DNA of 41,244 nt from Gemmatimonadota bacterium (lineage in GTDB: Bacteria; Gemmatimonadota; Gemmatimonadetes; Longimicrobiales; Gaopeijiaceae). The DNA lies in contig SLSF01000038.1 in the NCBI GenBank assembly GCA_007130605.1, forward strand, positions 1 to 41,244. The letters run 5' to 3'. Made by a program: the position numbers and the translations under genes. The notes beneath the pieces are model-generated. The model worked only from the letters and a program-made list of their open reading frames with translations. It did not search any database and was not told the origin of the DNA. Shown piece after piece: positions 9,370-12,480 of the stretch (position 1 is the first letter of the stretch; each line of letters starts with the position of its first letter).

Positions 9370-9684
9370 ACCCCCCTTCCCGGATCTGATCCGCGATCCC
9401 GGCCCCGGGCACGGACCCGGGGCCGACGGCGAGGAAGGGGCAGGGGAGGGTCGGGCGACGGACGCCCCGGGCGGGGATCCACTCCCCACCCGGGCGACGG
9501 GCTTCCGGAGGAGGGGCCGGGGGTTGCGGCCCCCGCTCGATCCTGGCGACCTTCAGCGGTGCCCGTGGACGACTCCCGGGAGTCCTCTTCAGGCCGGGCA
9601 CCTCCGTAAATGGGACCCCGCGCGGCGCATGGCCGCGTCCGCCGGGCCCCGCCCGCCCTTTTCACGGCCGCCACCCCCTCCGAC
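9370..9684. other. 315-bp gap between RND operon and gltX, hairpin-rich
   Basis: No convincing gene was found here. The gap holds several GC-rich inverted repeats: CGGATC-T-GATCCG at 9381-9393, the 10-bp stem at 9400-9425, CGGGGG/CCCCCG at 9518-9535 and the 14-bp perfect palindrome GACTCCCGGGAGTC at 9571-9584, followed by CTCTTC. Terminator activity for the efflux operon and a promoter for gltX are both expected here. No -35/-10 pair close to consensus was recognised. Confidence 0.5.
9400..9425 (+). terminator. Candidate terminator hairpin after the RND operon
   Basis: A perfect 10-bp GC stem (9400-9409 with 9416-9425, 6-base loop) starts 31 bases after the last permease stop. There is no T-run after it, so intrinsic termination is uncertain. 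Just before it is a small perfect inverted repeat, CGGATC-T-GATCCG (9381-9393). Confidence 0.45.
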
Positions 9685-11142
9685 ATGACCCTTCGCGTAC
9701 GCTTCGCACCCTCTCCCACCGGCTTCCTCCATGTGGGTGGAGCCCGGACCGCTCTCTTCAACTGGCTCGAGGCTCGCCGAGAGGGGGGCACCTTCATTCT
9801 CCGTGTCGAGGACACCGACCAGGCGCGTTCGTCGCCGGAGATGACCCGGGCGATCCTCGACGGGATGCGCTGGCTCGGGCTCGACTGGGACGAGGGGCCC
9901 TACTTCCAGAGCGAGGGGATCGACCGCCACCGCTCCCAGGCGCTGGAACTCCTGGAGAAGGGGCTCGCCTACCGCGACTTCGTCTCCCCCGAGGCGCTGG
10001 CCGCCATCCGCGAAGAGGACCCCGACCGGGCCCTCCGGCATCCGCGCCGCCAGGCCGAGGCCCTGGGCGAGGAGGAGAGCCGGGCCCGCGCAGAGGCAGG
10101 AGAGCCCTTCGCCATCCGCTTCCGTGTGCCCGACGGAGTGGTGGAGTGGAACGATCGGGTGCACGGCGAGACCCGCTTCGACACCCGCGAGATCGAGGAC
10201 CTGGTGATCCTCCGCGCCGACAGCACCCCCACCTACAACATGGCGGTGGTCTCCGACGACGGCGCCATGCGGGTGACCCTGGTCATGCGGGGCGATGACC
10301 ACATCTCCAACACACCGAAGCAGATCCTCCTCCACCGGGCGCTGGGACAGCCCGTGCCGGAGTTCGCCCACCTCCCCATGATCCTGGGGCCCGACGGGAA
10401 ACGTCTCTCCAAGCGCCACGGGGCCACTTCGGTGGAATCGTACGAGGGAGAGGGGATCCTCCCCGAGGCCATGGTGAATTTCCTGGCCCTCCTGGGGTGG
10501 TCCGCCGGCGACGACGAGCAGATCTTCACCCGCGAGGAGCTGGTCCGGGCCTTCTCCCTCGACCGGGTGCTGAAGAAGAGTGCGGTCTTCGACCAGACGA
10601 AGCTCGAGTGGCTGAATGGTCGCCACCTGACGGCGCGCTCCCCCGAGTCGCTCCGGCCGGAGCTCCTGGCCCGCTTCGGGCCCGAACGGGAGGTGGCCGA
10701 GGCCCGGCTCGACCAGGACCCCGAGGGAGCTCGGCTTCTCATCACCCTCCTCAGGGACCGTGCCCGGACCCTCAACGACCTGGCGACCCAGTCGCGGATC
10801 TACCTTCTCGACACCTTCGAGTACGACGAGAAGGCGACGGGGAAGCACTGGTTCCGGGATCCGGAGATGGCGCTGGGGCACCTCCAGGCCCTCCACAACG
10901 GGCTTGCCGAGGTCGACTGGACCGAAGAGGCGCTGGAGGCACGGGTGCGGGCCATTGCCGACGCCCGAGGGGTCGGTGCCGGCAAGGTCATCCATCCCCT
11001 CCGCGTGGCCCTCACCGGCCAGATGGCGAGCCCCGGGATCTTCGAGGTTCTCGTGATTCTCGGCCGGGAGCGGGCCCTCCAGCGGCTCGATGGGGCGATG
11101 GAGCGCATCCGAAAAGGGAAACAAACGATTCCGGAATCTTGA
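9685..11142 (+). CDS. gltX: Glutamyl-tRNA synthetase
   Basis: This 485-aa class I aminoacyl-tRNA synthetase charges tRNA-Glu in the cytoplasm. The class I HIGH signature appears as PSPTGFLHVGGAR near residues 9-21, and the KMSKS equivalent GKRLSKR is at 238-244. The length fits bacterial GluRS. The frame is open upstream to 9610, but ATG 9685 gives the standard N-terminus (MTLRVRFAPSPTG) directly. Whether it is discriminating, or also charges tRNA-Gln for the GatCAB route, cannot be decided here; no glnS or gat genes are in the window. It is followed after 93 bp by the LexA-like gene, whose candidate -35 element overlaps the gltX stop codon. Confidence 0.97.
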   Translation: MTLRVRFAPSPTGFLHVGGARTALFNWLEARREGGTFILRVEDTDQARSSPEMTRAILDGMRWLGLDWDEGPYFQSEGIDRHRSQALELLEKGLAYRDFVSPEALAAIREEDPDRALRHPRRQAEALGEEESRARAEAGEPFAIRFRVPDGVVEWNDRVHGETRFDTREIEDLVILRADSTPTYNMAVVSDDGAMRVTLVMRGDDHISNTPKQILLHRALGQPVPEFAHLPMILGPDGKRLSKRHGATSVESYEGEGILPEAMVNFLALLGWSAGDDEQIFTREELVRAFSLDRVLKKSAVFDQTKLEWLNGRHLTARSPESLRPELLARFGPEREVAEARLDQDPEGARLLITLLRDRARTLNDLATQSRIYLLDTFEYDEKATGKHWFRDPEMALGHLQALHNGLAEVDWTEEALEARVRAIADARGVGAGKVIHPLRVALTGQMASPGIFEVLVILGRERALQRLDGAMERIRKGKQTIPES

Positions 11143-11179
11143 CGTTCCCTTTCGGGAGGGGTTAACCTCAGACGTTCGA
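11139..11179 (+). promoter_or_regulatory. Candidate promoter and GACGTTC repeats before the LexA-like gene
   Basis: TTGACG (11139-11144) overlaps the gltX stop and is followed after 17 bp by TTAACC (11162-11167), so the -35 is good and the -10 poor. GACGTTC occurs at 11141 and again, as GACGTTCGA, at 11171-11179, exactly 30 bp apart (about three helical turns). The GACGTTCGA 9-mer recurs upstream of the Rossmann gene at 22851. A role as operator for the repressor encoded immediately downstream is inferred. Confidence 0.4.
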
Positions 11180-11235
11180 GCCCGGGGTGCGGTGCACTCG
11201 GCCCCTCCCCGGGGAGCCCTTTCTGGAGATCCCGG

Positions 11236-11883
11236 ATGCCCGAGGCCTTGAACAGCCTGGAACAGCAGATCCTGGACTACATGGTTCGGTACCTGCGCAC
11301 GCACACCTACCAACCCTCGATCCGGGAGATCGGCGAGGAGTTCGGGATCCGGAGTACGAAGACGGTTTCGGAGCACCTTCGCTCCCTCGACGAGAAGGGC
11401 TACCTGCAGCGGGACCCGTCGCGGTCCCGCGGGATCCGGATCCTGGGGCTCGACCTGAGCCCCCAGACGCTGAGCGTTCCCTGCTACCAGGAGCTTCCCG
11501 ACGACTCCGGAGGCTTCGTCTCCGACGGGGTCGAGGCGTACCTCTCTGTGGACCGCCGCCTGGGTGGCGCCAAGGGATGCTACTTCGTGCGGGCCCGGGA
11601 AGAGCGCTTCGCTCCTCTGGGGATCGAGGAGGGCACCCTCCTTCTCATCGAGCCTTCCGCTTCGGCGGAGGACCTCTCCGACGGCGACCTGGTGGTGATC
11701 CGAGGGCAGGGAGAGCTCGATCTCGCCAGGGTGGAGAGCAATGGGGCGCGGCTGCGATTCCGGCCCGCCCGCTCCGGTGATGGGTCCATCGAGGTGGAGG
11801 AGTCCGGGGTCACCGGCCGGGTGACCGCCACCTACCGCCGACTCGACGGGGCGCCCGTCACTCCCCCGGCCACCGCCCACTGA
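11236..11883 (+). CDS. LexA-like repressor with degenerate S24 peptidase domain
   Basis: This 215-aa protein has the two-domain architecture of LexA. Residues 1-70 form a winged HTH very close to LexA (QPSIREIGEEFGIRS, then SRGIRIL). Residues about 80-200 align with the S24 self-cleaving domain. Aligned by eye with E. coli LexA, the Ala-Gly cleavage site is replaced by PDDSG (about 88-92), the nucleophile Ser119 by R124 and the general base Lys156 by A164. The core folding segments and the C-terminal SGVTGRVTATYRRL strand remain. It should therefore bind DNA but not self-cleave after RecA activation. It may be a second, non-SOS LexA paralog. A canonical lexA may exist elsewhere in the genome. 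It lies between gltX and tadA. Confidence 0.85.
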   Translation: MPEALNSLEQQILDYMVRYLRTHTYQPSIREIGEEFGIRSTKTVSEHLRSLDEKGYLQRDPSRSRGIRILGLDLSPQTLSVPCYQELPDDSGGFVSDGVEAYLSVDRRLGGAKGCYFVRAREERFAPLGIEEGTLLLIEPSASAEDLSDGDLVVIRGQGELDLARVESNGARLRFRPARSGDGSIEVEESGVTGRVTATYRRLDGAPVTPPATAH

Positions 11884-11937: not shown

Positions 11938-12480
11938 ATGTCCGAGGACACCCTCGATCCCACCCTCCCCGGCGAAGGCCGGCCCCTGGCCCGTCCCGGC
12001 CATCCCGGGGCACTCTCGGTGGAGGCTCCCACTCCAGGTGACGTGCGCTGGATGGCTCGGGCGCTGGAGCGGGCTCGGGAGGCGGCCCTCCGCGGCGAGG
12101 TGCCCGTGGGCGCCCTCCTCGTCCGCCAGGGCCGGATCATCGCCGAGGGAGGGAACCGGACCCGAACCCACCCGGATCCCACCGCCCACGCCGAGGTGGA
12201 GGTGATTCGGAAGGGTGCACGGATCCTGGGGGACTGGCGCCTCCTGGGGTGCACCCTCTATGTGACCCTGGAGCCGTGCAGCCAGTGCGCAGGGAGCATC
12301 GTTCTCGCCCGAATCCCAAGGCTCGTCTTCGCGGCACCCGACCCCAAGGCCGGAATGGTGGGGAGCCTCGGGAACCTGGTGCAGGACCGCCGACTGAACC
12401 ACCGGGTCCGGGTCACGGCCGGAGTCCTCGCCGAGCCCGCCGCCCTCCTCCTCCGGGACTTCTTCAGAGAGCGACGATGA
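11938..12480 (+). CDS. tadA: tRNA-specific adenosine deaminase
   Basis: This 180-aa zinc enzyme converts A34 to inosine in the anticodon of tRNA-Arg(ACG). Zinc and catalytic residues are visible: H84 and E86 in PTAHAEVE, then C114 and C117 in EPCSQCAG. The core begins near W38-M39 (WMARALERAREAALRGEVPVGA), so about 35 N-terminal residues exceed the E. coli enzyme. These are Pro/Gly-rich and may be disordered, or the true start may lie further in. The FDPKAG-type loop appears as APDPKAGMVGS. The stop overlaps the ATG of the following lipoprotein gene (ATGA), so the two are translationally coupled although functionally unrelated. Confidence 0.93.
   Translation: MSEDTLDPTLPGEGRPLARPGHPGALSVEAPTPGDVRWMARALERAREAALRGEVPVGALLVRQGRIIAEGGNRTRTHPDPTAHAEVEVIRKGARILGDWRLLGCTLYVTLEPCSQCAGSIVLARIPRLVFAAPDPKAGMVGSLGNLVQDRRLNHRVRVTAGVLAEPAALLLRDFFRERR

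Follow-up and report, generated by a model that had tools for sequence, protein, structure and literature searches.

A clade-wide LexA paralog of Gemmatimonadota that has repeatedly lost the cleavage site and catalytic dyad, probably a regulator uncoupled from RecA and the SOS response

The LexA protein of Synechocystis PCC 6803 is non-cleavable and regulates non-SOS genes, with a role outside the SOS response suggested and control through phospho-Ser173 proposed (PMC7567884, PMC3091678). The papers treat it as its host's LexA rather than as a paralog next to an intact one. In Leptospira interrogans, LexA2 accompanies LexA1 as a paralog whose DNA-binding domain has diverged and which has its own operator; it is located in a prophage-like region, and its level falls after UV, presumably because it is cleaved (PMC3789691). 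IrvR of Streptococcus mutans and HdiR of Lactococcus are LexA-like proteins with altered control that self-cleave to expose a degron and are removed in a degron-dependent manner (PMC7101444). How non-cleaving LexA proteins are controlled is a question for which Synechocystis has been the main case to date. We found no description of LexA in Gemmatimonadota in the literature, which is weak evidence since it covers open-licence papers only. Here we describe a second LexA, LexA2, of this phylum. We conclude, with a probability of roughly 0.8, that it is an old Gemmatimonadota LexA paralog that acts as a dimeric DNA-binding regulator, uncoupled in the window lineage from RecA and SOS.

The window, a stretch of 41,244 nucleotides from a Gemmatimonadota genome, carries lexA2 at positions 11236 to 11883 (all window coordinates given here are on the forward strand). 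The open reading frame starts with ATG, has GGAG just upstream, and encodes a dyad-less LexA paralog of 215 amino acids. Residues 5 to 70 (11248 to 11445) form a LexA-type winged-helix DNA-binding domain that passed the Pfam cut-off for LexA_DNA_bind (PF01726, E = 6e-18, 64.7 bits versus a cut-off of 23.7). The Pfam Peptidase_S24 score was slightly below its cut-off (21.2 versus 23.3 bits), and the score for the lexA equivalog TIGR00498 did not pass the curated cut-off (95.2 versus 110.95 bits). AlphaFold2, run with a 61-row family alignment, gave a confident two-domain model (mean pLDDT, 89.3), and a Foldseek search with this model returned as top solved matches only LexA structures, from Thermotoga and E. 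coli, with E values of about 1e-12. Both domains are therefore predicted to have the LexA fold. The initial annotation had stated that the helix-turn-helix and the overall S24 fold are kept, and the PF01726 match and the structural comparison bear this out.

We aligned LexA2 with LexA by phmmer against solved LexA chains, by a 167-row MAFFT alignment, and by hhalign of the window family against canonical LexA (E = 1.8e-38). The three methods gave a single register in which the dyad and the cleavage bond are replaced. By MAFFT and hhalign, R124 (11605 to 11607) aligns with the catalytic Ser (S119 in E. coli) and A164 (11725 to 11727) with the catalytic Lys (K156 in E. coli), and D89-D90 (11500 to 11505) stands in place of the Ala-Gly cleavage bond. 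An alignment by eye in the initial annotation had put R124 at Ser119, A164 at Lys156, and PDDSG at Ala-Gly, and the HMM alignment that it recommended agreed to the residue. Because P88-D89-D90 aligns with A83-A84-G85 of E. coli, the Asp at the Gly85 position is the same change as in the solved LexA G85D mutant (1jhf). K113 is the sole lysine of the C-terminal domain and aligns right before the strand that runs toward the Ser position, so that no alternative Ser-Lys pair is evident. Across the family, the Ser and Lys columns have no conserved replacement, with D, E, or R at one and Y, H, or F at the other. The dyad loss is no sequencing error, since it is common to the entire bacterial family of the window genome (f1). 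With the Ala-Gly, Ser, and Lys motifs all lost, the protein is predicted to be insensitive to RecA-driven self-cleavage, and we infer from these residues that its lineage has lost that activity permanently. Since it lacks the dyad and the cleavage bond and falls below the equivalog cut-off, LexA2 should not be classified as a LexA in the strict sense.

The initial annotation had also advised a check for a second, canonical lexA in the genome, and one was found, fully intact, on another contig. This second S24 protein, LexA1 (contig C340, L001:1258-1872), has 204 residues and carries VAAG, GDSM, and ATVKK, that is, all of the motifs. A LexA1 query matched 283 of the 295 genomes of the class, and the Ala-Gly, Ser, and Lys were intact in all 30 of the aligned LexA1 copies. 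LexA2 of the window lineage would act outside SOS, with a separate canonical LexA1 available for that response. LexA2 shares with canonical LexA, as represented by E. coli LexA and LexA1, the two-domain fold, the winged helix, the S24-type C-terminal domain, and the end of the dimer strand; it differs in the missing Ala-Gly, Ser, and Lys, in its recognition helix, in its gltX/tadA neighborhood, and in its His-ended tail.

A search of the same 295 genomes with the window protein found a second LexA in f1, in two other families of the same order (f2 and f3), and in f7 and f9. None was found in f4, f5, f6, f8, or f10, with genome G160 of f6 as a possible exception. Outside the class, six genomes searched with a dyad-intact LexA2 gave a single LexA-type match in five and none in the sixth, and the named relatives are Gemmatimonadota metagenome-assembled genomes. 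Within f1, the match was stronger than LexA1 alone gives in 86 of 94 genomes. Genomes without a strong match (about 8 of the 94, some of them incomplete) include G095 and G104 of genus g11, G086, and five others. Real gene loss is suggested by g11, a small-genome genus of which both sampled members lack LexA2, and the genomes without a strong match indicate that the gene may be dispensable.

We analyzed 133 LexA2 proteins with their flanks, the window's included. The upstream neighbor, gltX (glutamyl-tRNA synthetase, 9610 to 11142, named from sequence), was directly upstream of lexA2 in 107 of the 133 loci, and the downstream neighbor, a tadA-like deaminase gene (11938 to 12480, likewise named from sequence), followed in 104 of the 105 loci outside f7. 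The f7 loci have a TonB-like open reading frame, named from its sequence only, in place of tadA. At one f9 locus (L054:2162-2330), genes for tRNA-Gln and tRNA-Glu lie between gltX and lexA2. In five proteins of the f1 genus g2 (L036, L039, L041, L042, and L063), the LexA domain is apparently preceded by about 20 additional N-terminal residues; gltX was not found directly upstream at these loci. LexA2 looks like a gene inherited vertically from an ancestor within the class. A recent phage origin was not supported: the eight listed phage matches were 36 to 39% identical, none reaching 60%, and the chromosomal neighbors are kept.

The self-cleavage motifs were unevenly retained among the 133 proteins. 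Ala-Gly, Ser, and Lys were all kept in 27, and one had the dyad but not Ala-Gly; 105 lacked Ser and/or Lys, with all three motifs missing in 93. The dyad was kept in 13/13 proteins of f3 and 15/28 of f7 and was missing in 79/79 of f1, 7/7 of f2, and 6/6 of f9. In a maximum-likelihood tree made without the catalytic columns, LexA2 formed one clade apart from LexA1 (SH-aLRT, 100), and the dyad state changed at least eight times, six of these changes being forced by well-supported branches. The exact number of losses is uncertain, since the tree came from a quick search and many of its short branches are unresolved. The changes are most simply read as losses because LexA1 and the LexA of Firmicutes are intact. 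The dyad-intact sister proteins survive, so that the clade holds a natural series of the transition.

Mean pairwise identities in the DNA-binding and C-terminal domains were 0.72 and 0.34 for dyad-less LexA2, 0.75 and 0.54 for intact LexA2, and 0.82 and 0.74 for LexA1. Within f1, the DNA-binding domain had a median pairwise dN/dS of 0.12 and the C-terminal domain one of 0.53, figures that are rough because many pairs are nearly saturated at synonymous sites. The fast C-terminal domain is not peculiar to dyad loss, as intact f3 pairs gave a dN/dS of 0.48. The family's invariant columns are almost confined to the DNA-binding domain, and since this domain stays constrained in dyad-less lineages, lexA2 is a living gene. 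LexA2 is expected to function as a DNA-binding regulator in the manner of the LexA family.

The recognition helix region (STKTVSEHL..., residues 40 to 52, 11353 to 11391) differs from that of LexA1 at residues 41, 42, and 45, where T41, K42, and S45 are fixed in LexA2 versus L41, A42, and H45 in LexA1. E. coli LexA contacts DNA through Ser39, Asn41, Ala42, Glu44, and Glu45 (PMC3091678), and in these contact columns LexA2 has S40, K42, T43, S45, and E46 versus S40, A42, T43, H45, and E46 in LexA1. The contact residues are mostly fixed within each paralog, with E46 at 80% in LexA2. Because positions of the recognition helix are fixed differently in the two proteins, LexA2 probably reads an operator of its own, distinct from that of LexA1, and would bind it as a LexA-type dimer, presumably as a repressor. 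Leptospira offers a reported parallel, with different operators for its two LexA proteins (PMC3789691).

We examined the control region of lexA2 for a promoter and for an operator. A putative promoter (11139 to 11168) overlaps the gltX stop codon and consists of TTGACG (11139 to 11144), an 18-nucleotide spacer, and TAACCT (11163 to 11168); a strict consensus scan did not call this pair in the window. The pattern TTGAC-N(17-19)-TAnnnT occurred upstream of lexA2 in 50 of 79 f1 loci versus 0.2 expected from shuffles, which argues that lexA2 probably has a promoter of its own. A search for gapped palindromes upstream of lexA2 gave nothing beyond the level of shuffled sequences and no palindromic operator stood out, so that autoregulation is unsupported. 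The conserved element CTTGACAC-N-TTAGGATA was rejected as an operator, as it fits a sigma-70 promoter instead; three genomes had a single exact copy apiece, and a fourth and the window genome had none. In one f7 genus (L059, L123, and L129), the promoter is followed by an imperfect palindrome similar to TTGTGCTACAGCGTACAA, a possible local operator, and this candidate was dropped because its genome-wide recurrence was no higher than that of a reversed control. Between the putative promoter and the start codon, the window has an inverted repeat, CCCGGGG/CCCCGGG (11181 to 11213), and hairpins of other sequence sit seemingly at the same place in L056, L058, and L061.

Two features were gained in f1. 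Cys83 (11482 to 11484), just ahead of the relic cleavage site, is present in 77 of 79 f1 proteins and elsewhere in 0/30 LexA1, 2/13 f3, and 2/28 f7 proteins. The f1 proteins also have a tail that runs about 12 residues past the canonical LexA end, and 75 of the 79 end in His. The commonest ending is Thr-Ala-His, as in the window protein (11872 to 11880), and others are TQH, TPH, and TTH. In a set of 39 f1 representatives of less than 70% identity, the last residue is His in 38, position -3 is Thr in 31, and Cys83 is present in 37. Synonymous variation in the codons for Thr, Ala, and His shows that the constraint on the tail acts on the protein. AlphaFold2 gave the tail no secondary structure and the lowest confidence of the model. 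Dyad-less lineages outside f1 have no such tail, and in genus g5 (L101 and L103 to L105) it is swapped for one ending in Arg.

With its self-cutting off-switch lost, LexA2 must be controlled some other way. One group of Lon degrons, known from SulA and from Lon substrates of Yersinia, depends chiefly on a C-terminal His and disfavors Arg or Asp at that position, and Caulobacter LarA uses a C-terminal His likewise (PMC11986505, PMC10665427). A Lon gene was present in the window genome and in 19/19 genomes searched. The Yersinia motif x-L/I-L/I/V-H (PMC11986505) was not matched, as the LexA2 tails lack bulky hydrophobic residues beside the His. By analogy with these substrates, the conserved tail is a candidate degron, and in f1 its turnover by Lon would replace self-cleavage as the off-switch. 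We put release by this route forward tentatively, with the odds against it, and keep redox or metal sensing at Cys83 as our second-choice candidate. The wider scenario, in which a C-terminal His degron and Cys83 were fixed after self-cleavage had decayed, so that removal by Lon or sensing through redox, and not RecA, now governs the repressor, is possible but doubtful.

Other explanations would give LexA2 a different off-switch. It could respond to damage indirectly, through heterodimers with LexA1 or competition for shared sites, and be freed when LexA1 is cleaved. Both paralogs do occur in one genome, and LexA2 retains the end of the LexA dimer strand (G194, V196, and R201), but the recognition helices are unlike at fixed positions and the C-terminal domains have diverged to about 24% identity in the hhalign profile alignment, which makes such a link unlikely. 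Cleavage in trans by a dedicated protease has a precedent among SOS-like repressors: in Deinococcus, DdrO is cut by IrrE, an M78 peptidase. Although 56 of 129 class genomes have M78 peptidases, we found no PF06114 (M78) match in the window genome (93% complete) or in two congeners, and the conserved neighborhood holds no protease gene; with an IrrE-like trans-cleaver absent from the window genus, we rejected that candidate and regard a DdrO/IrrE-style mechanism as quite improbable.

The two remaining rivals deny either the function or the loss. A decaying gene whose C-terminal domain drifts and that regulates nothing would fit the C-terminal dN/dS of about 0.5, which nears 1 in some pairs, and the absence of the gene from some genomes. 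Against this, the reading frames were intact in the loci read, the DNA-binding domain has a dN/dS of about 0.12, synteny has been kept long-term, and Cys83 and the C-terminal His are near-invariant over the 39 representatives. We therefore reject the pseudogene reading on the dN/dS values and the gained, conserved residues and give decay very little credence. Least credible is self-cleavage by an unrecognized catalytic pair or bond, as the lone lysine of the C-terminal domain is distant in sequence from the Lys site and neither catalytic column has a conserved substitute anywhere in the family.

The nearest functional precedent is Synechocystis LexA, in which, as in the window LexA2, neither the Ala-Gly bond nor the catalytic Ser is present. 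The initial annotation had cited cyanobacterial LexA proteins with lost catalytic residues that act outside SOS, and this precedent is real: in the Synechocystis protein, Gly-Gly replaces Ala-Gly and Asp replaces Ser (PMC3091678, PMC7567884). It belongs to a different phylum. In LexA2 the Lys is lost too, and loss of self-cleavage has occurred six or more times. Also different from that precedent are the occurrence of LexA2 as a paralog next to an intact LexA, its spread over several families, and the gained residues. Compared with LexA2 of Leptospira, the Gemmatimonadota protein sits among conserved chromosomal neighbors, and its cleavage machinery is missing. IrvR and HdiR expose their degron by self-cleavage, whereas LexA2 has none and its candidate degron is the natural C terminus. 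The clade-wide paralog, its dyad-intact sisters, the repeated losses, and the conserved Cys83 and C-terminal His all go beyond the initial annotation.

One clade therefore offers intact, partly lost, and fully lost LexA2 in related genomes, mostly beside a canonical LexA. This series allows one to ask whether loss of the SOS switch alters the regulon, with Cys83 and His215 as named residues, and an annotation of "LexA" in Gemmatimonadota need not imply SOS control.
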